From NCBI GenBank assembly GCA_014871385.1, contig CM026424.1, positions 18,385,357 through 18,449,356 of the forward strand: 64,000 nucleotides of DNA, in the 5' to 3' direction. The translations under genes were made by a program, and so were the position numbers. Below, one piece after another: positions 10,003-52,739 of this stretch (positions are counted from its first letter, which is position 1; every line of letters begins with the position of its first letter). Source of the stretch: Ceratodon purpureus (taxonomy: Eukaryota; Streptophyta; Bryopsida; Pseudoditrichales; Ditrichaceae). The notes below the pieces were generated by a model. The model did not search any database, was not told the DNA's origin, and was given only the letters and a program-made list of their open reading frames with translations.

Positions 10003-10156
10003 CTATGAACCAGCAACAAAAAAACATCTATGAAAGCATAATTTAATCTTAGGAAGGAATTTTTTTTTTTGAGGAATTCTGACCAGAGGTAAACTAGAAA
10101 TATCACGTCACAATGCCGCTAAAAACCCTTAATCCGTTCGACATTCAATATGCAAA

Positions 10157-10383
10157 TTCAAACTGCAGCTTCATCTGAATTGGTCCCGGAATTAGTAATT
10201 AAGCCACCGAAGAATGATGAGAAACTTGCAGAGAAGCGTGTGGTGCAAGAAACATACTTACACGAGGAAAAGATGGTTGTCAATGACTGGCTGAGGTGTG
10301 ACGACGAAAGTGTAGAGGAATTGCAAGAAATTTTATTCACATCCTTTCACATTAGCCTTGGTATACAACAAGGGCAAGCCTAG
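10157..10383 (+). pseudogene. Exon-like fragment shared by both duplicon copies
   Basis: The frame encodes a hydrophilic stretch beginning near TAASSELVPELVIKPPKNDE and running to a stop at 10383. The inverted copy at 22130-22262 has the same peptide but with a stop right after KNDE, so at least that copy is dead. The protein family is not recognised and no other exons of the gene are evident. Confidence 0.3.
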
Positions 10384-11001
10384 TGATTTATCGTAGTGGA
10401 GCGAGAACAACTGTCCTGAAATGTTGGCACATTTTGGATAATTTCAACAGAGCTGATATTGTGGTGCAACTCGGATGAATTGAAATTTGGTACTAGTATC
10501 AACAAATAGCGGGCGCAGGTAGATGCAAGATTGTCATGATTCTGGGCTTACCACTCAAATGCCTGGAAATTTGCACACATGCATTTTTCTGCAAAACAAA
10601 CTCGTAAATCACGCATTCAATTGTTGAATCTTTCCCGACAGCCAGACCTTTCTACATTTAACAAACTCAAGAGAAGTATCTGAAGTGTCCATACAAATGT
10701 GTGCTCTGAAATATGTGAAGCTTCCGTTTTGTCTTAATGATGCAAGCACAAGAGCCCATTTTATCGTAATCGAAACAGTCTGAATCACTGCATGGATCAT
10801 CTTCAGGACATTGATAGAATCTGATTAGTCAACGATGGTGACGATCAGATTCCACGAAGAACCTAAGAATCTTTGACCATCGGGCAAATCCGCGCCCAGC
10901 CAGGCATATTTATCTTCGACATGCATTATCGACATGTGTGAACGATCAGGTCGTGGCACAATTTCATTTAGTGCCTCGGTGGGAATGGTTGTATCTCAGC
11001 C

Positions 11002-11009
11002 TATATATG
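11002..11009 (+). promoter_or_regulatory. TATA box of the MTPSL cassette
   Basis: CTATATATGA lies ~90 bp upstream of a conserved leader that ends CTGCAG|GTACTC. The same TATA and leader occur in inverted orientation before the SPH gene (20993-21002). TGACGTC (bZIP/CRE-like core) lies downstream at ~11028 in both copies. Confidence 0.5.
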
Positions 11010-11074
11010 ATGTTCAGTCCTACCACCCTGACGTCTTCACTTCCACTTCGGCCACCGTGAGTACGTCTTCTCAG

Positions 11075-11768
11075 CCCAAGCACTGTTGTCTGTGATTGCT
11101 CGTCAGCTGCCTGCAGGTACTCATTCCATGGACACTAATTCTCTGCTCTTGTCAACTTGTTGCTCCAGTTCTTATTAAGTTTCGCTCACATCTATAGGTT
11201 GTAACCGACTGTTGCCGTTTCTCAGTACTTGCCCATTGCACCATCGTTGTATACTTGCTTCAGTTAAAACCACGTGATTTCGTTCAATACTCACTAATCT
11301 GTCTGAAATCTGTGTGTATAATCTGCAAGGAATAAATAGTACACTGTTGAGTTAGCACCCAGGATAAGTACTCAGCTAGAGCAGAAATTAATGATCCCGG
11401 TTTCTCCACGTTTGATATGTATGCTACATTCTGGAAATTGGCATAGAATGATAGACGTAGTCGCCTTGCACAGCCCGGATTCTGTACTGGAAGTTGTGCA
11501 GATCCGAAGTAACTAAATCAACATAATAACATCGTGATTGTATATCTTCCCAGCCCAAGCACGGTTGTCTGTGATTGCTCTTCAGCCTGCAGGTACTCAT
11601 GAATTCTATGGACACTAATTCTCTGCTTTTGTTGGCTTGTTGCTCCAGTTCTGATTACGTTTTGCTCATTTTTTAGGTTGTAAGGTTTTCTGTTGCCGTT
11701 TCTCATTGTATATTATTGCACCATCATTATCTGATTCAGCTTTGACACGTCCTCTGTGAACGTCACAG
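11075..11768 (+). repeat. Tandemly duplicated leader upstream of MTPSL
   Basis: 11077-11250 (CAGCCCAAGCACTGTTGTCTGTGATTG..., CTGCAG|GTACTC donor, TTGCTCCAGTTCT) recurs at 11551-11730 with about 88% identity by eye. The MTPSL gene therefore has two potential 5'UTR donors (introns starting 11117 or 11593) and one plausible acceptor, GTCACAG|ATCATGG, at 11768. The second copy has no equivalent in the SPH duplicon. Confidence 0.6.
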
Positions 11769-11771
11769 ATC

Positions 11772-12965
11772 ATGGATCCAATCACAGCAGAGGGACATTC
11801 CCTCTTGCATCCTGAGATGCATCTGCCAGAGAGCGAACTACCACCTTTACTCCCTTCAATGGCCATTGAGGGCCTGCCCACAATGCAACAGTCCATGTAT
11901 TTGCCAGAAGCAGAGAAACTTTTGATGACATATGCGGAGCGCTGGCAGATTGTTTCCTTGGAGTCCTTCTTTCTTCTAGGCCTTTCATTGACTGGGTTCA
12001 TTCACTCAGGAGTGATCTCGGTGGACCGTCTTGTGGCAATGGCCATCTTGTATGGCATTCTGTTTGTGGTGGATGATCTCTTCATTGACAGCCCAAATGA
12101 TATTCTTCTTGGTCAATATGGCATTGCTCCTAGTATTCGTAACAGTCCTGACCAGATAAAAGAATATCTTGACAAGGTTTTGAATGAGATTTTTGGTCAG
12201 AAATCCAAACCTCTGCCAAGTTCAGCCAATCCAGTTGAGATGATCTTTTGGGAGGTAGGACATGACATCCTACGTTTGTCCAATCCAGAATGGTTCGACA
12301 CTTTTGTGGATGGTATCAACGAATGGTTCCAAGCAAGCATTTCTAGCCATGCTGATATTGTGTCGGGCCACAACTTATGCGTGCAAGACTTGAAGTCTTA
12401 CAGTAGTATGCGTGCTGGAAATTTTGGTGGAACATTTATCCAACTGCTGCAGGAGTTTGCGAGCAACTGTTACCTGAGTGAAGAACTGCGCTCACTTCCT
12501 TTCATGCTGGAGGCAAAGAATGCTGCAACAATGCATATGGCTTTCGTCAATGACATCTATTCCTACCACAAGGAGAGCATGCAAGAAGAAAATCCACGCA
12601 ACTTGATCACGGTCTTGATGGCATCCGAAGCGAAAACGTTTGTCCAAGCCGTACATGCGGCTATTGGTTTGGCCAACTTACATGCTCGTACTATCTTGAA
12701 TTTGGAGATGAAGACCTCAAACTCTGCTGTACAACGTCACTTGCAAGGCCTCAAAGAACTCATTGCTGGCCAACTTTACTACAGCACTGTGCAGGAACGC
12801 TACCGACATCCAGACTCATTTTTTCCAGAGCTCAGAGTTGTCATTGCTTCTCCACCAATTGCGAGCCACTCAACCAACGGCGAGAGCCCTGGCCAAGCCC
12901 ATAATACACCGGCAGGAGTGCCGCTCCCCATCGGCCAAACTGTCAGTCTGATACCCGGGCCCTAA
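11772..12965 (+). CDS. Microbial-type terpene synthase-like protein (MTPSL)
   Basis: A single uninterrupted 397-residue frame encodes a class I terpene synthase alpha-domain protein. Residues ~98-106 read FVVDDLFID, an Asp-rich metal-binding motif (DDxxxD form). Residues 260-268 read NDIYSYHKE, a perfect NDxxSxxxE (NSE) motif. R214 lies about 46 residues before the NSE motif, as expected for the diphosphate sensor, and RY at 343-344 fits the C-terminal RY pair. Length and lack of a plastid-type beta domain fit the MTPSL class of non-seed plants rather than typical plant terpene synthases. The expected activity is ionisation and cyclisation of a prenyl diphosphate (probably farnesyl or geranyl) in the cytosol; the product cannot be predicted. 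The ~30 N-terminal and ~45 C-terminal residues are Pro/Ser-rich and poorly conserved-looking. The start is the first ATG after a likely 5'UTR intron acceptor at 11768. Confidence 0.9.
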   Translation: MDPITAEGHSLLHPEMHLPESELPPLLPSMAIEGLPTMQQSMYLPEAEKLLMTYAERWQIVSLESFFLLGLSLTGFIHSGVISVDRLVAMAILYGILFVVDDLFIDSPNDILLGQYGIAPSIRNSPDQIKEYLDKVLNEIFGQKSKPLPSSANPVEMIFWEVGHDILRLSNPEWFDTFVDGINEWFQASISSHADIVSGHNLCVQDLKSYSSMRAGNFGGTFIQLLQEFASNCYLSEELRSLPFMLEAKNAATMHMAFVNDIYSYHKESMQEENPRNLITVLMASEAKTFVQAVHAAIGLANLHARTILNLEMKTSNSAVQRHLQGLKELIAGQLYYSTVQERYRHPDSFFPELRVVIASPPIASHSTNGESPGQAHNTPAGVPLPIGQTVSLIPGP

Positions 12966-13740
12966 ACTTGGTTTCTAGTGATGTGTCGCATGCAACTCCG
13001 CTCCTGATCCTGGTTATCAAAGAATGGTCCGAAACTCTCCCACCGTGCTGTCTTCTGCACTTGGGATTATATATGGAGAGGCCGCTCAACAACAGTACGT
13101 GAATAATAGTGTTGAATTGCCCAATGTGATAGGTTACCAGGTAGTTCATGTGTGTAAGAGTTACAGTTATGCTTGGTTAAGCCAATAAAACCTGCTACGA
13201 TGACGTTTCTTTAACTGGATCGAATTGCCTCATGCTTGCGACGTTCAAGTCATAAACAAATGCTGCAGATTCTGGATGCAAATCTGTAATTGAATGACTG
13301 GAGCCATGGATGCATATGTCAAATCTGGGTGTGAATGATCATGTCACGTCGGTGTTATGCTATATGGAAGGCTTCCTCTTTTGCAATTAACCCCTCACAG
13401 CAAACCAAATTATAGGTTCATGACATGCCTGAAGTCCTTTGGCTCTGAATAGTCTCCTTGACCATCCTCATCGAAAAGCTGATTTGGTGTTACATAAACT
13501 AATATGTGCGAGACCTCATCAGTACAGACATAATCGTGCATAAGTCGCATTTACAATCTGGTCAGTTAATCTCGTAGGTCATGGTATCTTCCCACCATCG
13601 CGAACATTGAAAAATTTAGTGCTAGCATTTATTTCTTGGTGTAGACAATCAACCGTTTCAACTCCATCATAGAGCACTGGATTCCTTTTCAGGATTACCT
13701 GGAAGCAAGTCTGTCGATGAAATTATATCATATGGAATTT

Positions 13741-14059
13741 ATTTCTGGAATAGTAAAGATGTAAAATGTATCTTTTACGATATGTAGGTTTCTTCTGTTA
13801 CCAAATTATACAAATCCAATTTGGTTTTTTTCCATAAGTTTTTTTTTTTTTTTAGTAAATGTAGTTCTACAATTGCTACATTGCTAACTGTAAAAACGAC
13901 ATAACATTTAACAATAGTTCTACAATTGCAAAAATTCTTGACCTTACGGTACTTCTCCAACATAGTGTAAAGCAGCCCCATGTAGGAGTTCCTTTACTTT
14001 CTAGTAGTCACTGTACAGTACTGTACATGCTGTGTTTGGGAGGAATTCTGAGATAAAAT
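13741..14059. other. AT-rich gap, no gene seen
   Basis: This stretch contains a T-rich run at ~13838-13853 and a direct repeat of AGTTCTACAATTGC (about 13863 and 13916). No gene or RNA is recognised. The 3'UTR of the minus-strand BTB-type gene probably lies here. Confidence 0.4.
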
Positions 14060-15448
14060 TTAGTACGGGAATTCGCACAGAAGATCACCACCCGGAATCA
14101 CAAGCTTGATCCGATCAGACCCTGCCGCAACTTCGGAGACCAGGCGCTTGATCCAAGACTTGTGAGCCTCTGTAAAAGACCGTCCACACACAGGATCCAA
14201 CAGAGCGCTCATCCAAAACTTCTCCTGCTCCAGTTGAGGCAACGTCATGAGAAACCTGGTCACGAATTCTCCAACGCGTTCTTCATCACGGTCTAAGAAT
14301 CGAAGAATCCAACACCAGTCATTGACCAGAGAAATTCGTTGCGGAGTATCTAGAAACATGCGGCCTTCCAGCACATCCTGAAAGATTGGGCCGATCACAA
14401 CTTGAGCCCATTTTTTCAGCATGTCGTCTGGGTATCTGCCGTCTGGGATTGGGATATACTTGACATTGTCCTTCATCTCACATGACAACGGTGTAGCCTT
14501 GACAAGAGCCTCTAGAATTCCTTGCGCTGCTGTGGCTCTCCTTGATACCTTGAAAAGCCAGCACAAGTTATGCATGTCCCGTTGAACGCTCTCACTTCCG
14601 GTGCCGTCGTCATCGTCGTGAAGCGAATTCGTGATCGATCCCAGGAGTCGTTCAGTTTCTTCCTTGATAAGAGTCAGGGCGAACTGCAGGACGTCGTCGT
14701 TGCATGTCCCAGACATGACTGTATGGAGAGCTCCAGCAAATTTGATGCTGCTGTCAGGACAAGAGCATAAGGCTTCTCTCCATGACTTTGGACCTGGGGT
14801 TGAATCATTGGGAATGGCATGCCGCAAGTAGCCACTCAGCATTTCCTGTGAACATTGTGAAAGCTTGTTCTTCTGATCTTCTTCGGTCAAGGGCTGCTCA
14901 TTTAGTAAGCGCGCTCTCAAATCGCTCGCTGTGACGAAAGGCAGATGCCCCGCCTCATAGAACTCATGGATTTGCTTCTCCTCGCTGATAGACCAGACCG
15001 ATGCAGCTAGGTACTTCACTCCTAAGCTTAGAAGATCTTGGAATAGGATTTGGGACGCCACCTTGAGAAGCTCAATGCAGAAGGCAATGCTCGGAATTGG
15101 CTTGAACAGATAGTGCATTCGGGAGAAGCAGTCTTTGTAATACACCATATCCGTTTGAGCTTCAAGGTAAAAATCCATTTCCAGGGGCGTCCGCTTTCGT
15201 TGAGTCCATCGCTCACTTAGACCAGTTTCAAAGAATTGGCTGCACCGGCGCAGTCTGCCCGACTCCACCTTGATCTTCCCCAAGCACAACCTGTATTTCA
15301 TTTCAGCCTTTTCAGCCTTTCTGCTGCTTCGTTTCCTCTTGCAGGTGGTGCTTCCAGCTTGGTCGAAGGACGAGCAGCTTGCCACAATTTTCTCCACCAA
15401 GTGTATCGTAACGTCGCCATATAAGGTATTCCTGATCTTATCATTCAT
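14060..15448 (-). CDS. BTB/POZ-domain protein, plant-specific family
   Basis: One 462-residue frame. The N-terminal ~110 residues (GDVTIHLVEK..., then SQFFETGLSERW) fit the diverged BTB fold of a plant family related to Arabidopsis At1g63850/At3g05675-type proteins. This assignment rests on motif resemblance only. A Lys/Arg-rich insert at ~37-50 (CKRKRSSRKAEKAEMK) sits within the BTB region and could be a nuclear signal. The middle part shows the family pattern of a short helix block after the BTB (LLKVASQILFQDLLSLGVKYLAAS, then WSISEEKQI). The C-terminal half (WLFKVSRRATAAQGILEALVK, later DWCWILRFLDRDEE) resembles the family's conserved C-terminal region. BTB proteins of this type are thought to be CUL3 adaptors or transcriptional regulators, but no function can be stated for this one. 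The ATG at 15448 gives a complete domain. An additional 5' exon is not excluded. Confidence 0.7.
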   Translation of the reverse strand: MNDKIRNTLYGDVTIHLVEKIVASCSSFDQAGSTTCKRKRSSRKAEKAEMKYRLCLGKIKVESGRLRRCSQFFETGLSERWTQRKRTPLEMDFYLEAQTDMVYYKDCFSRMHYLFKPIPSIAFCIELLKVASQILFQDLLSLGVKYLAASVWSISEEKQIHEFYEAGHLPFVTASDLRARLLNEQPLTEEDQKNKLSQCSQEMLSGYLRHAIPNDSTPGPKSWREALCSCPDSSIKFAGALHTVMSGTCNDDVLQFALTLIKEETERLLGSITNSLHDDDDGTGSESVQRDMHNLCWLFKVSRRATAAQGILEALVKATPLSCEMKDNVKYIPIPDGRYPDDMLKKWAQVVIGPIFQDVLEGRMFLDTPQRISLVNDWCWILRFLDRDEERVGEFVTRFLMTLPQLEQEKFWMSALLDPVCGRSFTEAHKSWIKRLVSEVAAGSDRIKLVIPGGDLLCEFPY

Positions 15449-16159
15449 ATTTCCTTAGACTGCGCTTGTCGTTCCAAGAGCTCAACAAAAGTTCACTTAC
15501 TGAACACAGGGACATGATGGTTATGAGGATTCGCCCAATGGGCTTTAGAGGTGAAGAATCAACAATTAGGGGACGTCCTTGACATTCAAAGACCATGTTG
15601 GGTGAGAGCTGCGGTGCAATTAACGATACATAGACGTTTAAGAGCGCAACATCAGCCATTATAAATGCTTTGATGCAACGAAAGAGCAACCAAGGCAGAA
15701 TTGGTTGATTTCGGGACCTGCTGATACGACCTTGATCAAAGTGCGCTTGAGGCTCCTGCACACTAGCGGCTTCGCATCGGCTGTGCGCAACACAAGGTCT
15801 CGGTTGTCGCGAGAGTGTTGTTGCCGCCAAGACTAGGGTTTAGGGAAGCTTGAATTCATTTTGCGAGCTCTTCTACCGAGCTTCCTCAGTCTGGAGGATG
15901 AGGGATCTCTACGCTTGAATCCCTTGCGCCACTCAAAATCCTACAAATTCTATTCAAGAGAGAAGGCCTTGTTTCGATGGAGTGCGGCTATATACGGCAG
16001 CGGCATCCGCGTAACATGTACGAGAGGGCTCTACTCTTTTGGTTGATTATTGATAAAGTAATCGATCTAGGGACAATCCAGTTACTTGGAAGTTCACTAA
16101 CGAAACGTGGGCTTCTCTTTGGTTGATCCTGTGTGAATTTGCATCTTCGTGTTTAGTCC

Positions 16160-16405
16160 CTTATGCAGTTTTCGCCTTCTAGTTTCTACTTGAATACGCG
16201 TCATTAATCGAGCTCATCAGTGAATCAATTAAACAGTCAACATTCAAAAGTACTGGAAATTCTCAGACAGTATGCCGTAGCAACGGAATTGTAAATGGTG
16301 TGCAATCAAGCTTCTCTATTGGCCTCGCTCTCGCATTCAGTTGGACGATACTGGACATGCTTCTTTGACGGGAAAGGAAATTTCCAAAGTCTGCAGAGTG
16401 TCATC
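16160..16405 (+). repeat. Diverged copy of the segment left of the palindrome
   Basis: Aligns in direct orientation with 121-385 (see that entry). Identity is roughly 75-80% by eye with small indels. Confidence 0.6.
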
Positions 16406-17264
16406 GGTGTGTTAGTTTCAGCGAGAATTTCAAAGCATTGTTGCACGTGCGCTAACAAATGTTCTACTGGACAACGTGACCAGGCAGCTTTTAATATTAA
16501 TTGTTTTTCTGATGTTGAATTCATGCATCTGGTGTGCAGGAAATAAACCCGTATTTAGTGCCGGTGGAGCTCCTCCAGAAAGGTTTGCTGTTATCTACTC
16601 GATCAGGTGATTATTGCACTTGTTACCGACTCGTAAAAGACACCCACTTGTGTTTAAGTATATGTATGGAAATTAATGTTTTGTTTAAGCATAATATGGG
16701 AAGTTTGGTTCAAATTCTGGCAATCTCGATGCTACAGTTGTGAACTGGTTGTTTCACATCCAATTTGTTTACAAAGTAACTTCGACCAACTCCTAGGGGA
16801 AACGAGCTAATTTGCGTGACACTTTCACTTGAGATTTCAAATAATGAAACTGAGAGCAGTTGTGAAATAAGCTTCAGCTACGAGTTTTGAAGTGTTCCAT
16901 CTCAGACGATTAATCTGCTCTAAAAGCATTTCATAGGTCAATTTGAAAGTGTATCATCTGTGTCGCTTATATCAAAGGTTTTAAGCCTATTGTTCGGTGT
17001 TCGGAAAGTATTTCTCTTCAGCGAAACTTACCGGAAGTTCGTCGATCTACAGTCTTTGCAGTTGAACTGTAGCAGCAGAAACACTGTACCCAGCGAATGA
17101 TATTGGAAATTAGCTTCCAAAGTTGTTCTAATTGGGACACTTGAGCGCATACGTGTGGGACATTGATATTTTTTGTATGATTTTTGGATTGAAAATATTG
17201 CTTCATCAGTCCTAATGAGCTGTAAACTTTTCCCAAAGCCATTCACGCTACTACAAATGTCCTT

Positions 17265-17435
17265 CAAGGACTTGAAAGACGGCTCTCAAACCCCTTTCAT
17301 ATCGGAAACCGACTGGGTACAGTTAAGATTTGAGTTGTGTACCAAAAAATAAAATTATTGCTACGTTGCACTGTTGCGAACTTGCGCAGCAGCTGAGCAG
17401 AGCAGAGTGTGTGGATGGTGGAAACAAAATACAAT
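17265..17435 (+). repeat. Segment repeated at about 21450-21590
   Basis: Both copies run CTTTCATATC.GAAA.C versus CTTTGATATCTGAAAGCC, then TACAGTTAA.ATTTGAGT, and end with GCAGAGTGTGTGGATGGTGGAAAC or a close variant. In the right duplicon this segment interrupts homology with the left copy, so it may be an inserted repeat. Confidence 0.5.
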
Positions 17436-17560
17436 ATATTATTTGGTGTTTTTTAATATCTATGACAGATTTATATATAACAATAGAAGTTTGAAATAAA
17501 TTATATATTATTACGTCTTCTAAAATCTTTCAGAGATTTTTATATACAATTTAAGTTTGA

Positions 17561-17563
<3 letters not shown>

Positions 17564-17623
<60 letters not shown>
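17564..17623. repeat. TA dinucleotide microsatellite (about 30 units)
   Basis: An uninterrupted AT/TA run in an already AT-rich context. Probably length-variable. Confidence 0.95.
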
Positions 17624-17625
<2 letters not shown>

Positions 17626-17819
17626 CTTCTGAGATTTTAAGTCCTCTAAAATATGCTATTTGCATCTATTTTATATAATTATTTTATTGCTAATACAAAA
17701 AGTATATCATTTACTTCAAATAGCTTCAAAAGCATATCATGGAGTATTTATGTTTTCTTGACTACCTTCCATCTTTGTTGATACAATAGTAATTAGCAAT
17801 CATGGCATTTTACCGTAAT

Positions 17820-18599
17820 TTAGATTGTATCAAACTTGGATACATGGGGTTGCACATAATCATACCAAAAATCTGGAAATCCCAAACTATTTAGCTCTTT
17901 GATGCCCTTATCGTGGACCTCACTCAAAACAAATGACAAGGTATTTATGAAATCTGCTATACACATTTGGTATTCATCATTGGCATCTTTGTTTTCTTCT
18001 AGATTGATAATCCTTGAATTGCATGTGTTGGTCATGGCCTCTTCAATGGTGCCAAATTCCATATAATCCCACCATGGCATTGGAAATCCCAAGCTAATAT
18101 TGATTCCTTCTCCATCCTCGTCTTGTACCTTGTATAGAATAAGGGGCAATACATCCATCAAATCCGAAATGCCCAAATGATCAACACTTGTAGTAGTAGT
18201 ACCATTAGTGGGAGAGAGGTCTTCCTCAAAAGAAAGGATTGCTTGTTGTTCATGCACTAGTAGAAATATGGTCCTTAATGACTCGTCCATAATGACTTAA
18301 GTAGTCCAAAATGTCTCAATTTGAATCATTTTGGACCATAGTAAGTCATTATGGACGAGTCATTAAGGACCATATTTCTACTAGTGATGAAGATTTTGAA
18401 AGTGACAATTGTCTTCATTTGTGGCATGGAATTTTTCCAAGTCATTGGAAAGTCCATGTGACAATGAATTTGGATTGTCTAAGTTTTTCTCCACATTGAG
18501 CAACTCAAGTAGAATGTTTGTGATGGCCTTGTCATTCAAGGTATGTGTATCCATGGCAACTTGTTGATTGAAGGTGATATGCTCCATGAGTCCCTTCAA
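17820..18599 (-). pseudogene. Unrecognised internally repetitive gene, interrupted by a CACTA miniature element
   Basis: The minus-strand frame runs from ~18599 to 18390, is broken by the insertion at 18255-18386, and resumes to a stop at 17820. Ignoring the insertion and one copy of its target duplication, the two halves join in the same frame (...FQNLH then EQQAIL...), so the host gene was intact before insertion. The protein has three related modules of ~35-40 residues. The last two read DLMDVLPLILYKV...SLGFPMPWWDYM and DFINTLSFVLSEV...SLGFPDFWYDYV; the first is AITNILLELLNVEK.... It is acidic and rich in Asn/Asp. I do not recognise the family. The upstream limit is uncertain: an in-frame TAG lies just beyond 18599, and the first ATG is near 18587. 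Confidence 0.5.
18255..18386. mobile_element. CACTA-type foldback miniature element (132 bp)
   Basis: Begins CACTAGTAGAAATATGG and ends with the reverse complement CCATATTTCTACTAGTG. The outer 45 bp on each side are perfectly complementary, and most of the interior (GTCCAAAATG...CATTTTGGAC) also pairs. It is flanked by the direct 3-bp repeat ATG (18252-18254 and 18387-18389), matching the 3-bp target duplication and CACTA ends of En/Spm-like transposons. It carries no transposase, so it is a non-autonomous derivative. Confidence 0.9.
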
Positions 18600-19319
18600 A
18601 TTGGATTTCCTCCACTATGTATAAATGTGAAAAAGCTGTACACTAGTACAATAATAATATGATGATCAAGACTATGAAATGATCAATGCAAGAAGTAGAG
18701 AATGACTCATCCTATGGTCCAAGGTGACCTTATATTGATACTTGGTACCTTGGAAAAAATGCAAAAGTAGGAATGAAGTTGCTTGTAGGCCAAGTTTGCT
18801 TAGTCACCTTTTAGAAAAAGTAAAATGAAAATGATTATATTTATAGACTTGCAAAATGTAAAAGCAGAAGATCTAGGAAATTGTGTATTATTATGCAACT
18901 ATGATGTACATGATACAACTTTGCTTATATGTACATGAAGGATAGATTTAATTCATTATTTGCTTCATATTGTAAACTCCATGATTTATTGATGAACGAT
19001 TTTTGTTACAATGTTGGATGAAGTCATAATGATAGGGATAAAATTCACTGGTTTGAATTTTTAACTTTTAATCTATTTATATCAAATCAATATGTGTAAG
19101 AAAAATCTAAGACATTGATATGCTTCAGGAGTACTTCTGTTAACTCTAGTAGTATGATATCCAGCTTGATGGATTGCAATCTGATTGTATCCGCTTGAGT
19201 GAGGTGGGAAGATGCTATCTTTAAATGAAAATGGTCTAGTATGTTGCCGTCACACACTCCTTCGGAATAGTTCATTTCTGATGTGAAACCAGTGAGTGCC
19301 CGGCCATGGTCACGGAACA
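18600..19319. other. AT-rich gap, no gene supported
   Basis: Contains only short frames, the longest on the minus strand at ~19087-19320 without a convincing ATG or homology. May include promoter or 5' exons of the interrupted repetitive gene. Confidence 0.35.
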
Positions 19320-20063
19320 AATTTTATCGACAGGCTTGCTTCCGGGTTTTCCTGGAAGGAATCTGCTCTATGTTTGAGTTGAAACGATTGGTTGTCTACA
19401 CCAAGGATTAAATGCTGCTAAAATTTTCCATGTTTTCTTGTTCGCAATGGTGGGAAGATACCATGACCTACGAGATTAACTGACCAGATTGTGACCGCGT
19501 CAATCTTGCGGCTTATGCACGATATGAGGTCTTGCACATTTTAGTTTATGTATCACCATATCAGCATATCGATGGGGATGGTCAAGGAGACTAAATTCAG
19601 AGCCAACTTTAGGGACTTCAGACATGATATCGTTAACCTATAATTTGGTTTGCTGTGAGGGGTTCATTGCAAAAGAGTAAGCCTTCCATATAGCATTATA
19701 ACACCGACGTGACATGATCATTCACAACCAGATTTGGCATATGCATCCATGGCTCCAGTCATTCAATTACAGATTTCCATCCAGAATCTGCAGCATTTGT
19801 TTATCACTTGAACGTCGCAAGCATTAAGCAATTCGACCCAGTTATAGAAACGTCATCGCAGCGGGTTTTATTGGCTTAACCAAGCATAACTGTAACTCGT
19901 ACACACATGAACTACCTGGTAACCACATTGGACAATTCAACACTATTATTCACGATGAGGCCTTCACAACTAATTCAGAGCTCTAATTTATTTGCGCACA
20001 ACCTTGATTAGCTGTTTAAGTAGAAGTCTAGTCCTCTGGTACATTCAGGAGCCTCGGAATTAA

Positions 20064-20477
20064 TCATCCCCAGGTCTTGATGAACTTGGAGTTGCACCAG
20101 AACCCTTCGTTCAGCACCTGCCAGAAGCAGTGGTCTATTCCAAGGCATTCGCAAGGACGATGTGCAAAGCTGAAGCCCTTGAACACATCAATGGTGGTGG
20201 TAGGTTTGCCCGCCGCCGCAAAAGTACACGTGAAGACTTCGCCGCCGAGGATACTTGGAGTTAACGTGTGCACAAATCTGTTGAACGGCGGCATGGACTG
20301 CCGACCGAGGTCCTTGCCATTCAAGGTGCAATGCAGGTTCAGTATCTGTCCAACTTTAACCAATTCGTTCTCGACCGTAATAGTCAGCGTCGCCCCCTTC
20401 ACCAGATCAATTGGTGATACAATGATTTGCAGGAGCAAGCACGCCATGATGATTCGGAAACTGGTAGAGGATGCCAT
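20064..20477 (-). CDS. Secreted S-protein homologue (SPH / plant self-incompatibility S1 family)
   Basis: The 137-residue protein starts MASSTSFRII with a hydrophobic signal peptide (about residues 8-28, cleavage near VKG-A). The mature part shows the S1-family pattern: TLTITVENEL, then QILNLHCTLNGKDLG (the conserved HC.s.ddDLG block), then GEVFTCTF, and a Cys-rich end, CECLGIDHCFWQVLNEGFWC (the family's C..W.V...G.y block). Length is typical (~120-140). SPH proteins are small secreted beta-sheet ligands. The founding member is the poppy stigma S-determinant, and most others have unknown function. A frame starting upstream at 20510 has no ATG; the ATG at 20477 begins the signal peptide. A 5'UTR intron is likely, with donor CTGCAG|GTACTC (exon end 20896) and acceptor GTACACAG|GAG (exon start 20490). 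The upstream cassette is shared with MTPSL. Confidence 0.8.
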   Translation of the reverse strand: MASSTSFRIIMACLLLQIIVSPIDLVKGATLTITVENELVKVGQILNLHCTLNGKDLGRQSMPPFNRFVHTLTPSILGGEVFTCTFAAAGKPTTTIDVFKGFSFAHRPCECLGIDHCFWQVLNEGFWCNSKFIKTWG

Positions 20478-20992
20478 GCTGGAAATTCTCCTGTGTACAT
20501 ATAAAACCACATGAATCTTGTGTTGATTTAATTGGTTCGGATTTCAATTACAATGTCCAGTACAGAGTGCGGGCTATGCAAACCGACTACGTGGGTGCCA
20601 ATGTCCACAATGCTGCATACAAGTTAAACGTGAACAGACCTGGATTGCTAATCGTAGCTCTAGCAGAATACTTTGTTCCTTGCAAATTATACACACAGAT
20701 TTCAGACAGATAATTGAGTTATGAACGAAATCTCGTGGTTTTAACTGAAGTAAGTACACAACGATGGTGCAATGGGCAAGTGAGAAACGGCAATGTTCAG
20801 TCGGTTACAACCTAAAGATGTGAGCGAAACTTAATAAGAACTAGAGCAACAAGCTGTCGACAAGAGCAGAGAATTAGTGTCCATGGAATGAGTACCTGCA
20901 GGCAGCTGACGAGAAATCACAGACAACAGTGCTTGGGCTGAGAAGACGTCACGGTGGCCGAAGTGGAAGTGAAGACGTCAGGGTGGTAGTCA

Positions 20993-21002
20993 ATATATAT
21001 AG
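20993..21002 (-). promoter_or_regulatory. TATA box of the SPH cassette
   Basis: On the minus strand GCCTATATATATTGAC precedes the conserved leader with two TGACGTC cores. It corresponds to 11002-11009 in the MTPSL copy. Confidence 0.5.
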
Positions 21003-21021
21003 GCTGAGACACAACCAAGCC

Positions 21022-21152
21022 TACCGAGGCACAATCTGCCCACCGAGGCACAATCTGCCCACCGAGGCACAATCTGCCCACCGAGGCACAATCTGCCCAC
21101 CGAGGCACAGTCTACCCACCGAGGCACAATCTGCCCACCGAGGCACAGATTG
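21022..21152. repeat. 19-bp minisatellite, seven units, just upstream of the SPH TATA
   Basis: The unit CACCGAGGCACAATCTGCC is repeated about seven times with few substitutions (unit 5 has CAGTCTACC). The left duplicon copy has only one recognisable related unit (GTGCCTCGGTGGG near 10972). The array therefore expanded after the duplication, about 20-150 bp from the TATA box. Confidence 0.9.
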
Positions 21153-22129
21153 AAACTGTGCCCCATGACAGATGAACGTACTCGACCCTCGAGATTATCG
21201 ATAGTCATTCACATGTCACAGTGCCTCGCTTGGCACGGATTTGCCCAAGCAGTCGATGGAACTTGGGCATGAAAAGGAATATGCTTGAATGAACATTCAG
21301 GAACTGATCCTTTATCTGGATGCTATCGTGGGCGGCCCGATTGATTGTGACGGATGTGTATGGTCAAAGATTTTTATGTTCTCAGTGGAAATCCGATCGC
21401 CACCGTCGTTGACTGAGATTATATCCATATCCTGAATTCAGGTATTCATCATAAAGACGGCTTTGAAACCACTTTGATATCTGAAAGCCACCTTACAGTT
21501 AACATTTGAGTCGAAAACTAATTTAAGAAAAAAACATAGATACGGTGCACAGCAGAGCAGAGTGTGTCGATGGTGGAAACCAAATCACTGCATATAGATG
21601 GGAGTTCATGAGCTGGTCAAACCGTTTAAAAGATAATCCATGCAGTGATTCAGACTGTTTTGATTACGATAAAATGGGCTCGTGTGCTTGCATCATTAAG
21701 ACAAAACTGAAGCTTCACATATTTCAGAGGACAAATTTGTATGGACACTTCAGATACAGTTTCTCTTGAGTTTGTTAAATGTAGAAAGGTCTGGCTGTCG
21801 AGAAAGATTCAATAATTGAATGCGTGATTTACGAGTTTGTTTTGCAGAAAAATGCATGTGTGCAAATTTCCAGGCATTTGAGTGGTAAGCCAGAATTATG
21901 ACAATCTTGCATCTACCTGCGCCGACTTTTTGTTGATACTAGTACCAATTCATCTGAGTTACACCACATCAGCTCTGTTGAAATTATTCAAAATGTGCCA
22001 ACATTTCAGGACAGTTGTTCTCGCTCCGTGCTACGATAAATCACTAGGCTTGCCCTTGTTGTATACCAAGGCTAATGTGAAAGGATGTGAATGAAATTCT
22101 TTGTAATTCCTATGCACTTCATCTTCGCA

Positions 22130-22423
22130 CCTCAACCGGTCATTGACAACCATCTTCTCCTCGTGTAAGTATGTTTCTTGCTCCACACGCTTCTCTGCAA
22201 GTTACTCATCATTCTTCGGTTGCTTCATTACTAATTCCGGGACCAATTCAGATGAAGCTGCAGTTTCTGTCACAGGGCGTCTAGGTAGGTACAGGTTCTC
22301 CTTGTGTGAGACAGGGAAACAGCTTGGTTTCACTTCACAAATCCCTTGGTGAGTTCCTTCAAGGAGGGAAAGCAAACTCAGGAATGAAAATCTTCGCTTA
22401 ACTTTTAGCATCAATTCGTGCAA
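22130..22423 (-). pseudogene. Exon-like fragment, dead copy, in the right duplicon
   Basis: Counterpart of 10157-10383. The frame reaches TAASSELVPELVMKQPKNDE and then a stop. Upstream it diverges from the left copy and continues as an open frame (GTHQGICEVKPSCF...) to ~22423. The product is not recognised. Confidence 0.3.
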
Positions 22424-22645
22424 CAGTTAATAATGCCATGGTTTTGCTTTGTAGATCGGTTGAATGCTGCTTGGTTGTTGCTTGCTCAAGGATTGATGTA
22501 TTTTTTCCCCTTCTTGTGTAAAACAGCATATGCTAAAATGAGGATTCAGGTTACTTGCGGCCAATGTACGAAAGTTGACATACCGGCATTGTAATCTGCT
22601 GTGTGTAGTACACTGGGAGAACTTTAGACGGCGTGTTGAGAGAAT

Positions 22646-23093
22646 ATGATCATATATTTCTGCCTCATGATCTTGATGATGATGCAGTTCTTTGCATCAG
22701 GAGATCTGGTGGAGGAGGTGATGTAAAACACTTGGCAGAGGCTGAGAATAATTATTGAAAACAATGTCAGGATGCCAATTGGGCAGGTGCTAGACTTTAA
22801 TTGCCACCTGCATAACCAGAACCCTGACAAACGACTATGGCCAGCTCTCTGTGATGCCTACAGAAGTGCATACACATAAGAAACATACACGAGTTTCAAA
22901 GGAACCGACGTCGTCAAGTGCACCTTCTCCACGGCAGGCAAACCTGACATTCCAGATGAATTTTGTGGTTAGAGTTTACCTTCGGAAAATTTCCTGGTTG
23001 CAACTGCATTGGTCTTACACCGTGAGAGCAGGTGGTGAATGAAGCGTGCTGGTGCAACTTTTGCTTCATACAAAAGTGGGATTGATTATGAGC
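22646..23093 (+). pseudogene. SPH-family pseudogene
   Basis: An ATG at 22646 opens a hydrophobic signal-like segment (MIIYFCLMILMMMQFFASG) that stops after EEVM. Downstream in the same frame are all S1-family blocks: RLRIIIENNVRMPIGQVLDF then NCHL, KGTDVVKCTFSTAGKP, and, after a frame change, CNCIGLTP...EQVVNEACWC and FIQKWD. These line up with the SPH gene at 20064-20477 and with 24162-24530. At least three in-frame stops and one frameshift are visible, so it is non-functional. It lies between the two intact SPH genes. Confidence 0.75.
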
Positions 23094-24161: not shown

Positions 24162-24530
24162 ATGGGGTTGTGTTCCAAGGTTGGTCTTATCTTCTGCTTT
24201 ACTGCGACGGTGCTAACGACATTATGCCCTGTGGAGGGAGTGCATGTGAGCATCGGAAGTATGATGACCCCCATCATGACCGTGCATTGCGTAAAAGGGA
24301 ACCAAGATGAGGGAGTGAGAGTGGTGCGCTCCATGCACGAGTACTCGTTTGATGTTTCAGGGGATTTCAGAGGACCTTATGTTTGCAATTTTGAAGCAGC
24401 AGGAAAGCGCACCACAATGCTGGACGTTTGCAACTCACGCTGCAACTGCGATACTTACAGTGGGTGTGCATGGGTAGTCAGGAATGACGGCTTCTACTGT
24501 AATCATGACTTAATTCAAAAGTGGGCTTGA
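24162..24530 (+). CDS. Secreted S-protein homologue (SPH / S1 family), second member
   Basis: The 122-residue protein begins MGLCSKVGLIFCFTATVLTT, a clear signal peptide. The mature region keeps the family order: MTVHCVKGNQDEGVR, GPYVCNFEAAGKRTTMLDV, a Cys cluster (CNSRCNCDTYSGC) and WVVRNDGFYCN, ending IQKWA. AAGK.TT.DV followed by the Cys-rich tail is shared with the protein at 20064-20477, so the two are paralogues. Compared with that gene it has additional cysteines in the C-terminal cluster. The open frame extends 6 bp further up but without an ATG; ATG at 24162 is the natural start. Its promoter region is not part of the MTPSL/SPH duplicon. Confidence 0.8.
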   Translation: MGLCSKVGLIFCFTATVLTTLCPVEGVHVSIGSMMTPIMTVHCVKGNQDEGVRVVRSMHEYSFDVSGDFRGPYVCNFEAAGKRTTMLDVCNSRCNCDTYSGCAWVVRNDGFYCNHDLIQKWA

Positions 24531-25540
24531 GTTCCAGAAACGTGATTCAGACACAGTTTGCAAGAGTTGATGTCAAGATAAACTTAGTGCATCATCTCAT
24601 TTCGAGTAAGGCTGTACTTCAGATTTAAAAGAATTAAGCCAAAACTCTTTCAAACTCAGCAGGATCAAGAACACTGACTCATTTCCACATGCCTATAAAA
24701 TCTCCAGGGATCGTTATCCTTTCAGAAATGTTGTTCCCATTAATTTGAAAATTATACAGGTTGATTATAGAGAGATAATATCAGAGGATGTCATCTTGTT
24801 GTCACAAAAAGCATGCTCGAGAGCAAGTCGTAATTTCTTGCAAAGTGCACCTGATCCTGAAATGTCGACCAAATTTAGCAAACTATTCTGTAATCAGTAA
24901 GTTCTGACATTCACAATATGTGTTTCGAAGCTGTGTTTACTGTAAATGATCATGAATGAGCCGCCTTGCAAGCTGATCTCCATGCTCGTTTTCCTGGAGC
25001 TGATTGTGTACCACATTATACATACCTTGAAACCGAGACTCAATTTCTCCAGATGTGCAAATTAGAACAGTCACGCAAATTACAGAGTTGTCAGCAAATT
25101 ACAATCCATCTGTTGAATTCCCAAGTCACTCGTCATTCTCGTGTACCCCTACGTCGCCAAGGAGAAGCGAATCGGTCCCACCCCAGGTTGACTCCAGGAA
25201 ACCACCCTCAGCATAAGCAATCAGATCGCGTCACAAACAATGCTTCAAATCCTCAGCGTTACGAATCTACCTACAACGCAACAGCTCCATCTCCGAGATA
25301 TTGAATAATCCGTCCTAGATTCTAGAAGCTACGAAATTCCCAAAAGTTTTCCCAACATCGCTTCAAACTTCGCCCTCGTTCGTCTCCCACAGACACGGCA
25401 CCACTCTCACACAACTCACTGGTCGAGGATAATGGGGCGAGATCATACAGTGAGATCAAAAGGATAATGGTGGCTGGCATCGCAAGGAAGAACTAGGGCA
25501 GATCAAGTAATCAGCGAGGAGCTAAACTTGATCGACAAAC
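24531..25540. other. Intergenic / 5' leader of the STPGR gene
   Basis: No gene seen up to ~25300. The part 25300-25540 becomes CT-rich and looks like the leader of the gene starting 25541. Confidence 0.4.
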
Positions 25541-26743
25541 ATGGACGAGACGTTCAACGACAATCCAGGCCCGGGCGCATACTGCTTGAAGGACAGATAC
25601 ACGAAGAACGCAGCGCCGATCTACTCCATCGGCCAGAAGTTCCGAAGCGGCCCCAACGCCGACCAGCCAGGCCCGGGCGCGTACGATCCGAAGCTCGGGG
25701 ACCGCGGCCCATCGTACACGCTACCGGCGCGATTCGGGCCGCGCTCGCGCGACCAGTACCCGGGACCAGGTGCATACTCCTCCGAAGTCGCCTACACGAA
25801 GCAATGCCCGCCGTCCTACTCCATCGCCAGCAAGTTCATCCCCAGCGACGGCGACAAGAACCCCGGCCCCGGCAGCTACGAGGTCCGCAGCCGCCTGGGC
25901 GGCCCTGCGTACTCCCTCGCGGCGCGCATGCGCGGCGGGACCAAGCCCACCACGCCCGGCCCGGGCGCGTACGACGCCACGCCTCGCTCCGGCGCGCCGT
26001 CGTACTCCATCGCTGTGCGTCCTAGAACCGCCCCAGGGGACTCTCTCCCAGGCCCCGGTGCTTACAACCCGCTCCTCCACTCCTGCGTCCCAGCCTACTC
26101 GCTCGCGAAGCGCTGCGGCACAGCTCGCTCGGATGTGAATCCCGGACCTGGGTCATACAACCCCGAGCGCGGTGACCGCGGGCCGGCTTACTCCTTGTCG
26201 CGGCGATTCGCGGACGGCAAGGGCGACATGAATCCTGGGCCGGGCGAGTATGATCCCAGTAAGAAGTCAAGCGGGCCTGCTTACTCTCTCGCGGCGAAGA
26301 TGGGGAGCCGGTCGAAGGACAATGTTCCTGGGCCTGGAAGCTACGACCACCGGTTCAACTCCGGCGCTCCGTCGTACAGCATTGCGAGTAAGTTTGCGAG
26401 TGGCGCCGGGGACAAGAATCCTGGTCCGGGGAGTTACGAGCCCAGGATTCGGAGTGGCGCGCCCAGTTATACCTTGGCCTCCAGGGTGAACAAGCGCGCC
26501 GCAGATATGAACCCCGGGCCTGGGACGTACGACGCGAATTTGCATAATTGTCATCCGAGTTATAGTATTGCGAAGAGGTTTGGGGAGGGGCGGGGGGATA
26601 ATAACCCTGGACCTGGAAGTTATGATGTGAGGTCGAGGACCAGCGGGCCGGCGTATAGCATCCAAGGGCGGCATCCTAGGAACCGCCCCGATCAGCACAA
26701 GTCGAGAGGCGATTACTCGTTTCGCGATTGCGGGCCGTGCTGA
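25541..26743 (+). CDS. Sperm-tail PG-rich repeat (STPGR / ODF3-like SHIPPO) protein
   Basis: The 400-residue protein is built almost entirely of 12 repeats spaced ~30-33 residues. Each carries PGPG[ASTE]Y and, ~15 residues later, a [GA]P.Y[ST][LI] motif. This is the SHIPPO/STPGR signature of ODF3-like axoneme proteins, which in animals and algae bind along or inside flagellar microtubules. In a plant this implies motile sperm. Single exon, start at MDETFNDNPGPG; the ATG follows a CT-rich leader. The 5' half is strongly GC-rich (codon third positions mostly G/C) and the 3' half less so. The related gene at 28153-28767 has the same N-terminus (DNPGPGAYC.KD), so the pair is a tandem duplication with a different number of repeats. 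The end RGDYSFRDCGPC is not repeat-like. Confidence 0.9.
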   Translation: MDETFNDNPGPGAYCLKDRYTKNAAPIYSIGQKFRSGPNADQPGPGAYDPKLGDRGPSYTLPARFGPRSRDQYPGPGAYSSEVAYTKQCPPSYSIASKFIPSDGDKNPGPGSYEVRSRLGGPAYSLAARMRGGTKPTTPGPGAYDATPRSGAPSYSIAVRPRTAPGDSLPGPGAYNPLLHSCVPAYSLAKRCGTARSDVNPGPGSYNPERGDRGPAYSLSRRFADGKGDMNPGPGEYDPSKKSSGPAYSLAAKMGSRSKDNVPGPGSYDHRFNSGAPSYSIASKFASGAGDKNPGPGSYEPRIRSGAPSYTLASRVNKRAADMNPGPGTYDANLHNCHPSYSIAKRFGEGRGDNNPGPGSYDVRSRTSGPAYSIQGRHPRNRPDQHKSRGDYSFRDCGPC

Positions 26744-28152
26744 GCGATGGGATGATCGGCAGCGCCAGTTTTGTTTGTTCGTGGTTTAGGGTGGATAATC
26801 CGGTCTGACGTAGTTGTTTGAAGGATGTCAGTGGATAGTTGACGGGGTTGTGCTTGGCGTGTTGCGCGGTTTGGGGGCCATGGTGTGCGAAGATGGTGCA
26901 CCAAGAGTTTGTTGCAATAGGGGATTTTGTTCGGAAGCGGAGGGACCTGAAACTTTCTCTGGAAGCTTGAACTATGCAGGATGGATTTTTTGTTCATGAA
27001 TAGCTTACAGTGTAAGCAATGGAGCCTGTTCCTATCTGTTGTTCAAATCAGGTTGCGGAAGTAAAGTGCTGGATTGGTCTTGGTTCACTCCGAATGAACG
27101 CGCATATTTTGTGGATTCATGTGAATTCTGAAACATGTTTCAAACGGTCCGGGATATCAAGTTCAACTCTAGCAGTTTTCAATTTAAGCACTTGCATACG
27201 TACTCAGCAAAGTCCGCCCTGTCAGGTAAGTGAGGACCTGTCAGGTAAGTTTTGAAGCCTCGCCGGCCGGCTGGCCTCAGGAAATCCTCAGAGGACAAAA
27301 TTCACTCTTCTAACTCTCAATCCAGGAGAAAGTCTGAAATGTGAGCTTTGAAATCCGCTATGCTTCCAACTATTGCCCTGAAGTGAGACTTGTTCTAGAA
27401 TTACAGCATGTCAATTTTCCAACAGCCAGCTAGGGATCATTGTGAACGCTGCGGCAAAAAAACCTTTCAGTTCGCCCGTAGGAGTGTACAGGTTTCGAGA
27501 AAACTTCACATTGATGTAAAGAGATCAATTGGACTTATATGATTAACTACAAGCTCTTACCATGAAAAGTCATCTGCAACATCTACAAGAAATGCAAATC
27601 AAGCACCGTGCTCCACCCACAGAACTTCCTCCGACTCCACCTACACCTTCTTAACCCAGCATGCTGCATACATCAAAGACAAGCTTGCATACATGCATTA
27701 AACTGAATGGGAGAGTAGTAAAATTGTGCTCTAAAGTAAGCTTAGTATTTCAGCACACCCCTCCTTCAGACACACATCAAATTTGAAGAGTGCAAGCACA
27801 CATGTTCTTTGTAATGAGTGAGCAAGTATTCAAGAGCAAGATGAACTTTTGAGGTAAAACACTAAGGTTGAGCAAAGAGATGTCACCACATGCCTAAGAT
27901 TGTGAGACATGCAGGTAAAACGATGGTTTACCCTTGATCCCCGGAGCTTCTCATCGAGGTTTCAAGGTTTGTTGGAGTGCTCTCTGAAGCATAATTCTTC
28001 AAGGTGAACAGACATATCGAAAGGACGTGTCGCATCACTTCATCGACTGGTCCATCCCCTCTTCACAGGTAGCAACGTCGATCATCGATACATGGGGTGA
28101 ACACCAAATCCTGCAGGTTTTCTACCTTGAAGCTCAAACTAGCTCTTGCAGC
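26744..28152. other. Spacer between the two STPGR genes, no gene seen
   Basis: Short frames only. The direct repeat TGTCAGGTAAGT (27220 and 27239) resembles splice donors. The end of this region holds the leader of the next gene. Confidence 0.4.
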
Positions 28153-28767
28153 ATGGGGGATGAATACAACGACAACCCCGGACCAGGTGCGTATTGCGTC
28201 AAGGACAAAATAACACATGAGCAAGCACCCAGCTACTCTCTAGCCGTGAAGCTCAGGAGCGGCGGAGACGACGACAAGCCCGGCCCCGGCACTTACTCGC
28301 CACGCGATCCCGACAAAGGCCCCGCCTACTCACTCCCCGGCAGATTCAAGGGCAAGTTCGACGACGAAAATCCAGGCCCTGGCAATTACTCCCCTAAGAC
28401 GCGCTACACCAAGTCGTGCCCGCCCGCCTACAGCATTGCCTCCAAGCTGGACAACGGAGGCTCCAGCAGCAAAAATCCGGGACCAGGCGCTTACGACCCG
28501 AAGCTTGGCCCCGGCGGGCCGAGCTTCAGCTTGCGTACCAGGGCCGGGAGCGAGGGCACAGAAGAAAATCCCGGACCTGGCTCGTATGATCCGGTTGTAC
28601 ACAATTGCATTCCTGCTTACAGTCTGGGGAAGCGACTAGACGGGAACAAGGGGGATGATGGCCCTGGCCCAGGAGCATACAACATGCAGCAGAAACGAAC
28701 CAGCCCGGCGTACACCATGGGTAGCAGGCTGGATCACAAGCGCCCACCGGGACGCAACACCAGATAG
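28153..28767 (+). CDS. Sperm-tail PG-rich repeat (STPGR) protein, shorter paralogue
   Basis: A 204-residue, single-exon protein with six PGPG.Y repeats and the paired P.YS[LI] motifs. It starts MGDEYNDNPGPGAYCVKD, closely like the upstream paralogue. The open frame extends 42 codons upstream (from 28027) but that part is not repeat-like and lacks an ATG, so the start at 28153 is preferred. The C-terminus is basic (SRLDHKRPPGRNTR). It is expected in the sperm flagellum or basal apparatus. It shares orientation with its neighbour, with ~1.4 kb between them. Confidence 0.88.
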   Translation: MGDEYNDNPGPGAYCVKDKITHEQAPSYSLAVKLRSGGDDDKPGPGTYSPRDPDKGPAYSLPGRFKGKFDDENPGPGNYSPKTRYTKSCPPAYSIASKLDNGGSSSKNPGPGAYDPKLGPGGPSFSLRTRAGSEGTEENPGPGSYDPVVHNCIPAYSLGKRLDGNKGDDGPGPGAYNMQQKRTSPAYTMGSRLDHKRPPGRNTR

Positions 28768-44459: not shown

Positions 44460-45393
44460 AACCCCTAAATTTCCTTGTGTTTTTGAGAGCTTGAATCCTC
44501 AAAACTGCGATTTTTTACCACTATGCCCTCCCGAGGATATGAAACAAACTTTTTAACCTTTTTTGGAACTTCAACCGTAAGATCTTGTACCTAACCCTAC
44601 TTAGAAGAACTGATCCAAATTTCAACCGTTGGATGTTTTTCATTAGGGAGATCGTAGTGTTCAAAGTTTCAGCAAATATTTTTTTCGGCCTTGGCCGAGA
44701 GGCATAGTGCAAATGGGCCAAAGGGAGACTTGATGATTATTATTTCAAACATTTTGGTCACATTTTTTCCCATGTAGCTTACTAAGTTAGGTATGCTCAT
44801 GCAAAATTTTAGGCCAAAAAAACGCTTTTTAGACCTTCATAAAAATTATTTTCTATAAGAAGGTATAAAATTGATGAAATAGTAAAACATGCATTACAAA
44901 AAAAATTTGTAAGCTAAAGAAAAAGTGAACGGTGAGTAGGTACCTTTATAAATTTGTGATTTTTAGAAAAAAATATTTTTAAAAAATTCAAAAATCTCGA
45001 ATTTTGACAAATTTCTAAAGAAAAAATTCAAAAATTACTAAAAACTTTGAAGCTTGTCTTTGTAAGTTTTGGAGGCTGCCCTTGTAAAATTGGTAAACTT
45101 TTTGACTTGGGTCACTATGGAACTTGATTAGTAATTTGGTTATGAAAATATTTCAAAATTTTTTTAATTTAAAAGACCTAATTTTAGACTGCCCGTTTTG
45201 GACTTGAAACCTAAAATTTCTAGATGAAGGTTCTAAAATTGGAATTTGGCTTCAGAATTTTTACTATATTCACCTTACAGTAAAGGGAGATCCCAGTAAA
45301 AATCTTGAAAAAAAATATTAATTTTAACCTCCCCATTTAGGCTGCCCGAAAATAGCCAAAACCCATTTTGGGTTTTAAGGATAGTTAGGGGTT
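44460..45393 (+). repeat. AACCCCTAAA-family element (934 bp)
   Basis: Begins AACCCCTAAATTTCCTT and ends with the near complement AAGGATAGTTAGGGGTT. The landmark TCAACCGTAAGATCTTGTAC lies ~113 bp in. The interior shares GTAGCTTACTAAGTTAGGTA, ATGCAAAATTTTAG and, near the 3' end, GGCTGCCCGAAAA with its relatives. Non-coding. Confidence 0.75.
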
Positions 45394-45762
45394 AAACTCC
45401 AAGGGATGTTGAAGGAAAAAATGATGTAACAAACACTTTTTTCTACATGGCACAAAAGGTGTATAAAAAAGAAGCTGTCTATAAAATATTTCTAGATAGT
45501 AGAAATTGAATCTTTTAGTTTGCTAAATATGATCATGGGATGCTTTCCATCTAAATTCATCAAGAGAATTTTAATATAAGGTTTTTTTTTTTATATGATA
45601 GACATTTTAAATACAAATTGTATAATATATTAAAATACTGCACTTCTCTAAAATACACCTCAAGATGAATATTTTTTTAACATATTTAGGATCATCATGG
45701 TCTCATTACACTAATAAGATTAATTTCAACTCATGTCGTGAAATTTTGATTATGAAGTGGTT

Positions 45763-52490: not shown

Positions 52491-52704
52491 AACCCCTAAA
52501 GGTTCAAGCCGTTTTTGGACCTCCAAAACCAAAAACTGTGATTTTTGACAACCTTGTAGAAGCTGAAGTATGATTCTTAATTTTTTAATTTTTTGATACA
52601 TCCAACCGTAAGATCTTAAACATAACTACTTGCACTAGTACCATGTCAAATTTCAATGGTTGGATCTTTACCATTTGTGAGATTATAACGTTCAAAGTTT
52701 ACTC

Positions 52705-52739
<35 letters not shown>

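Follow-up and report, generated by a model that had tools for sequence, protein, structure and literature searches.

A terpene synthase gene and an S-protein homologue gene within one inverted duplication of promoter, leader and downstream flank in the moss Ceratodon purpureus

How can the same promoter and downstream flank come to enclose two unrelated coding sequences? This question is raised by a locus in Ceratodon purpureus, located in a stretch of 64,000 nucleotides (nt) of contig CM026424.1 (assembly GCA_014871385.1, positions 18,385,357 to 18,449,356 of the forward strand), which we call the window. When the window is compared with itself by BLAST, two inverted copies are directly visible, joined by three main matches: copy A (10160-13724, plus strand) and copy B (22266-19320, minus strand). 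The bodies between the shared flanks differ, being a terpene synthase gene of the MTPSL type in A and a gene for an S-protein homologue (SPH) in B. A and B have in common the promoter, the leader and the greater part of the downstream flank, with a divergence of 4-6%. An earlier note, made from the DNA letters and a list of reading frames, had described shared flanks around unrelated MTPSL and SPH bodies, and this description is confirmed by self-BLAST and by the assignment of the two proteins to the Pfam families PF19086 and PF05938.

The simplest account of such a pair, also put forward in that note, is that a recent duplicate received an intronless MTPSL reading frame at its SPH start codon. 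A shared promoter and downstream flank around unrelated bodies would fit this account, but the divergence profile contradicts it. Divergence between the copies jumps at 11333 (20673 in B), with 15 differences in 321 sites on the left of this point and 49 in 181 on the right. An equal gain in likelihood was obtained in none of 200 permutations, and four other alignment settings place 4.2% divergence on the left against 22-25% on the right. Young similarity between A and B ends at 11333/20673, short of the SPH start codon. The stretch from there to the start codon, previously taken to be conserved, is indeed homologous between the copies, but its two versions (x in B, x' in A) are 22-27% diverged. 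The right breakpoint falls at 13097/19954 by self-BLAST, in agreement with the earlier placement. The exchanged block therefore spans 11334-13097 in A, with x', a second leader (L2) and MTPSL, and 20672-19955 in B, with x and SPH.

The second leader is the other feature that a bare insertion does not accommodate, because L2 is older than the duplication and directly precedes the MTPSL start, inside the supposed insert. It is seen in self-BLAST as a direct repeat within A (11053-11248 versus 11530-11728, 79.6% identity, E 1.9e-41); an nhmmer match to L2 was also obtained, with a model that includes L2. By Kimura two-parameter distance (K2P), the first leader of A (L1) and the leader of SPH (LB) are separated by only 0.023 (4 of 180 sites), versus 0.160 and 0.181 between L2 and those two. 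Differences confined to a single leader number 22 for L2, two for L1 and two for LB. L2 is thus an outgroup to L1 and LB, and must have split off well before A and B separated. All three leaders retain a candidate GT..AG intron of 81 nt (L1), 84 nt (L2) or 84 nt (LB).

Comparable age is indicated for x'. Two short BLAST matches of x to the window (E 3e-6 and 6e-4) argue that x and x' are homologous, though old, and by a rough estimate that allows for a slower leader, L2 and x' appear about equally old. Owing to an ambiguous junction, the last bases of x' are also the first of L2. Given that the exchanged block holds both x' and L2, leader sharing between SPH and MTPSL predates the inverted duplication. 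We consider the bare insertion of a reading frame hardly credible. Of the cassette exchange proposed earlier, what stands is the replacement of a body between shared flanks; what was exchanged is a larger block that brings x' and L2 along.

Two other ideas about these noncoding stretches were rejected. A coding origin of x, suggested by an antisense open reading frame (ORF) at 20468-20713, gained only a weak Pfam match (E 0.086) and no match in PDB, and in x the three codon positions differ about equally often (13/50, 12/51 and 15/51), which counts against it. A structured RNA in the leader was likewise dismissed, as Rfam at gathering cut-offs returned only tRNA, one at each of two places in the window.

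The reading we favor, and to which we give about an even chance, is ectopic recombination between two pre-existing genes with L-type leaders, so that the locus would be a mosaic pair of paralogous units. SPH and MTPSL genes would each already have carried, from an older event, a homologous L-type leader of exon-intron-exon form. In a younger event, one unit would have been duplicated into the two inverted copies that now differ by 4-6%, and the center of one copy would have been replaced through ectopic recombination with the other gene type. The left crossover would lie in the homologous leader, near 11333/20673, while the right junction at 13097/19954 would have formed without homology. MTPSL would as a result be under the control of the SPH-type TATA promoter together with L1; its transcript would cross x' and the gene's own, older L2, and its end is probably set by the poly(A) signal in the shared flank. 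We infer this order of events from the divergence steps. On such a history, the locus would offer a readable case in which a biosynthetic gene of microbial descent came under a plant promoter through the recombination of leader-sharing genes, and not by a naked landing.

Signals for expression are consistent with this arrangement. The conserved TATA motif and 5' untranslated region (UTR) intron donor reported earlier are upheld, as the motif occurs in both copies and the GT..AG candidate intron is kept. No TATA[AT]A is present in 11301-11560, before L2, and the AATAAA of the shared flank is the only one in 12966-13500. Both the TATA box and the poly(A) signal on which MTPSL depends are probably the shared ones. 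SPH has two AATAAA motifs, the additional one at 19992 and that of the shared flank. The tandem array in the SPH promoter, with 6.8 repeats of its 19-bp unit, is specific to that promoter; copy A holds about one unit. The donor of L1 (11117) and the acceptor of L2 (11676) enclose all seven ATGs in 11020-11771, and splicing from 11117 to 11676 would clear every ATG upstream of the MTPSL start. In A, the junction at 11333 has the conserved donor at 11117 on its upstream side and acceptor-like sites, as far as 11676, on its downstream side. If this long intron is spliced out, as it may be, the crossover on the left would have fallen inside an intron.

These relationships invite a further proposal, namely that the 5'-UTR intron serves as a joint for swapping coding exons between MTPSL and SPH. 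Both genes would possibly be defensive and co-expressed from one duplicated promoter-leader-terminator frame, and MTPSL expression would rely on splicing from the captured leader to the gene's own leader. We regard this proposal as doubtful, its odds being lowered by the lack of an acceptor-like site in B, as described below.

Several observations weigh against the favored history. Within the downstream flank, a second change point is found at 13607, with 29 of 492 sites differing to the left and 26 of 114 to the right (reached in 0/200 permutations); under four other alignment settings the step is weaker, with 12-13% divergence beyond 13595. This change point is a poor fit to a single young duplication. 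The outermost 10160-10335 is also somewhat more diverged than the rest of its arm (16/174 versus 16/458), although not significantly so (30/200 permutations). In B, the four upstream ATGs are all located downstream of the LB donor (20895) and ahead of the SPH start, and a scan for acceptor-like sites, with 8 or more pyrimidines among 12 positions required, found none after 20745. Splicing out of x is therefore unsupported, and if the short intron alone is removed, three of the four ATGs would stay in the SPH message. Moreover, the model rests on one locus.

The change point at 13607 favors a different explanation, in which A and B are old paralogues, roughly 20-30% diverged, whose flanks were recently homogenized by gene conversion between the inverted arms. 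One promoter would then have overwritten the other, either the SPH-type promoter that of the MTPSL unit or the converse. Inverted repeats lying close together are well known to undergo conversion, and the higher divergence retained in x and at the end of the downstream flank, each at a change point not reached in 200 permutations, is what this explanation would leave behind. However, the young tracts are equal in divergence. The upstream arms differ at 32 of 632 sites (5.1%, K2P 0.053), and together with 15/321 for the leader (about 4-5%) and 29/492 for the downstream flank (5-6% over most of it) the counts do not differ (chi-square p 0.72), in a test somewhat favored because, for the last two, only sites to the left of a fitted change point were counted. 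This equality fits one duplication. The outer edge at 10160 is also abrupt, with no differences in the first 40 sites and no homology seen beyond it (best score reached by 761 of 2000 shuffles). Recent conversion between old paralogues is, in our estimation, unlikely.

The presence of L2 and x' in A could also be explained without an unlinked donor, if the ancestor had carried two genes in the order L1-x-SPH and then (L)x'-L2-MTPSL-flank. After the inverted duplication, A would have lost SPH, through recombination of L1/x with its direct repeat L/x', and B would have lost L2 and MTPSL. For recombination between such tandem L-x units, 11333 is the expected site. In addition, a stretch resembling SPH coding sequence at 11735-11760 (28 alignment columns) occurs in A in matching order and orientation, and its score, the best of four comparisons, was reached by 1 of 1000 shuffles. 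This stretch is equally readable as continuing leader, however, and two deletions are required. With seven SPH and nine MTPSL proteins as queries, tblastn at E up to 1 found no SPH match in A and no MTPSL match in B. Comparison of the center of B with the DNA of the MTPSL region gives only that same stretch, before the MTPSL start (5/300 shuffles). The DNA comparisons with SPH started at 11729, and 11546-11728 was covered by tblastn only. The earlier note had named remnants of the missing gene as the sign of a two-gene ancestor. No clear remnants are found by tblastn, but L2 and x' keep that ancestor in play, and we judge it to be unlikely. As a separate matter, old homology of the two 3' UTRs was rejected, its score being reached by 315 of 1000 shuffles.

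A mobile element of Helitron or Pack type might instead have carried pieces of the genes and spread the flanks. An 18-bp inverted repeat (16/18 identical) has its arms on either side of copy B, at 19274-19291 and 22325-22342, and is matched by 2 of 2000 shuffles of 150-bp flanks and 13 of 2000 of 300-bp flanks. In a Marchantia MTPSL cluster, genes flanked by transposon residues are mentioned in an excerpt of PMC12890914. Against such an element, no target-site duplication is visible by eye at the 18-bp repeat, and no inverted repeat stands above shuffles in the 300-bp flanks of A (best match reached by 1553/2000). Neither L nor x has any further match below E 1 within the window. We therefore hold a mobile element to be very unlikely. 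The coordinates of all features are collected in Table 1.

Table 1. Features of the two inverted copies and of the adjoining sequence (positions in the window)
Feature	Position	Strand	Remarks
Upstream arm, copy A	10160..10803	+	Inverted match to B 22266-21630, 92.5% by BLAST
Promoter, copy A	10971..11064	+	TATATA at 11002, sole one in 10901-11100
Promoter-leader match	A 10971-11553 / B 21032-20491	inverted	Window self-BLAST
Leader L1	11065..11248	+	Candidate intron 11117-11197 (GT..AG)
x'	11334..11552	+	Homologous to x, but old; opens the exchanged block
Second leader L2	11545..11728	+	Candidate intron 11593-11676, GT..AG intact; older paralogue of L1/LB
MTPSL coding sequence	11772..12965	+	ATG 11772, stop 12963-12965; single ORF, 397 aa
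Downstream flank, copy A	13098..13724	+	Inverted match to B 19954-19320; AATAAA at 13184
ORF between the two arms	14063-15454	-	464 aa; no Pfam family above cut-off
Downstream flank, copy B	19320..19954	-	Inverted match to A; AATAAA at 19872
SPH coding sequence	20064..20477	-	137 aa; PF05938 (Self-incomp_S1)
x	20478..20672	-	Between leader LB and SPH start codon
Leader LB of SPH	20760..20946	-	Candidate intron 20895-20812
Promoter, copy B (SPH)	20947..21200	-	TATA motif CCTATATATATTGA; 19-bp tandem repeat array 21019-21147
Upstream arm, copy B	21630..22266	-	Inverted match to A 10160-10803
Broken SPH gene	22640-23079	+	In-frame stops, frame change
Further SPH ORF	24162-24527	+	PF05938

The window has three SPH copies, and L, x and the flanks accompany only that at 20477-20064. 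Since one of three SPH copies has the leader and MTPSL has two, it is not established that the unit began as an SPH unit, and SPH would be no more than a candidate for the gene that donated the leader. The earlier suggestion that MTPSL lies behind an SPH-type promoter is consistent with the lack of a TATA[AT]A motif in 11301-11560. The SPH pseudogene, whose promoter had been recommended as a guide to the ancestral state, is the broken copy at 22640-23079, and it is without L, x and flanks.

The SPH protein of copy B matches PF05938 with E 1.2e-13 (52 bits versus a cut-off of 24), and cysteines C50, C84, C109, C111, C117 and C128 are invariant in all eight aligned sequences. Its N terminus is hydrophobic, as judged by eye in the alignment, and may represent a putative secretion signal. 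Domain, conserved cysteines and hydrophobic N terminus are shared with other S-protein homologues. Unlike them, this gene shares its leader, promoter and flank with a terpene synthase; neither of the window's remaining SPH copies has these parts. A search of PDB with the SPH profile gave no matches up to E 1, and a literature search on moss SPH genes returned nothing on the subject among the matches listed.

The MTPSL product matches PF19086 (terpene synthase family 2) with E 4.1e-21 (76.1 bits versus a cut-off of 23.7), and its metal-binding motifs align as DDLFID (DDxxxD) and NDIYSYHKE (NSE); excerpts of PMC13098426 and PMC11579073 give the DDxxxD form and the NSE form NDVFSYHKE, respectively. 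The best of nine protein matches is M758_12G026700 (here P0001) of C. purpureus, at 90% identity, and the other eight are 41-57% identical, including another C. purpureus protein at 46%. At each of the 38 alignment columns without variation among the nine relatives, MTPSL has the common residue, and of 41 columns invariant in the eight distant relatives, MTPSL and P0001 each keep 38. Among the 35 differences between MTPSL and P0001, 15 fall on the window side, three on the P0001 side and 17 are unpolarized (binomial p 0.0075 for 15 versus 3), such that the window MTPSL may evolve faster while its active site is kept. P0001 has the residues SSVN shortly before its MDP; by eye, the window encodes SSVN too, in a different frame immediately ahead of the ATG, and the 5' end of MTPSL is thus common to the window and a relative.

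These relationships also bear on the origin of the gene. A scan of bacterial and archaeal genomes yielded 107 candidate stretches, of which nine are relatives at 22-30% identity, with the best bacterial locus at 30%; none of 30 candidate stretches from IMG/VR is a relative. By these identities, the nearest relatives of MTPSL are plant MTPSLs and not bacterial enzymes, in a comparison that covers fungal relatives through PDB only. Excerpts of PMC12890914 and the review PMC12448838 assign the transfer of fungal-derived MTPSLs to the bryophyte ancestor, and published dating thus sets the microbial origin of MTPSLs far before the events at this locus. Microbial ancestry had been offered as a reason for the capture of a resident promoter, but the link is weak, given this dating in the excerpt of PMC12890914 and the 46% relative in C. 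purpureus. The rearrangement concerns an MTPSL gene long resident in mosses. MTPSL genes usually have one intron or none according to an excerpt of PMC11579073, and missing introns were for this reason dismissed as evidence of a retrocopy origin.

Nonseed-plant MTPSLs resemble the window MTPSL in domain (PF19086), in the DDxxxD and NSE motifs and in having one ORF. The window gene is unlike them in being preceded by two tandem leader copies that are homologous to an SPH leader. Exon shuffling or promoter capture by duplication and ectopic recombination is a known route to chimeric genes. As in promoter capture, a promoter and 5' noncoding leader are joined at this locus to different coding sequences, and a shared promoter and leader accompany unrelated coding parts. 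In contrast to that route, the donor and recipient leaders here were already homologous, making this a swap between leader relatives and not the capture of a promoter by a gene that had none.

Other features of the window were noted in passing. The ORF between the two arms has nine protein matches at 31-39% identity, with those from C. purpureus (locus tags of chromosomes 6 and 9) at 31-37%. A 3.7-kb inverted repeat (386-4086/4986-8686) is 99.9% identical with four mismatches, and is either a very recent palindrome or an assembly artifact; both of its arms carry tRNA-Val (aac) and tRNA-Phe (gaa). Two plus-strand ORFs with sperm-tail PG-rich (SHIPPO) repeats lie at 25532-26740 and 27988-28764. 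Finally, a repeat of about 0.9 kb occurs in three copies that are 73-76% identical, at 44533-45395, 45836-46685 and 52488-53437.

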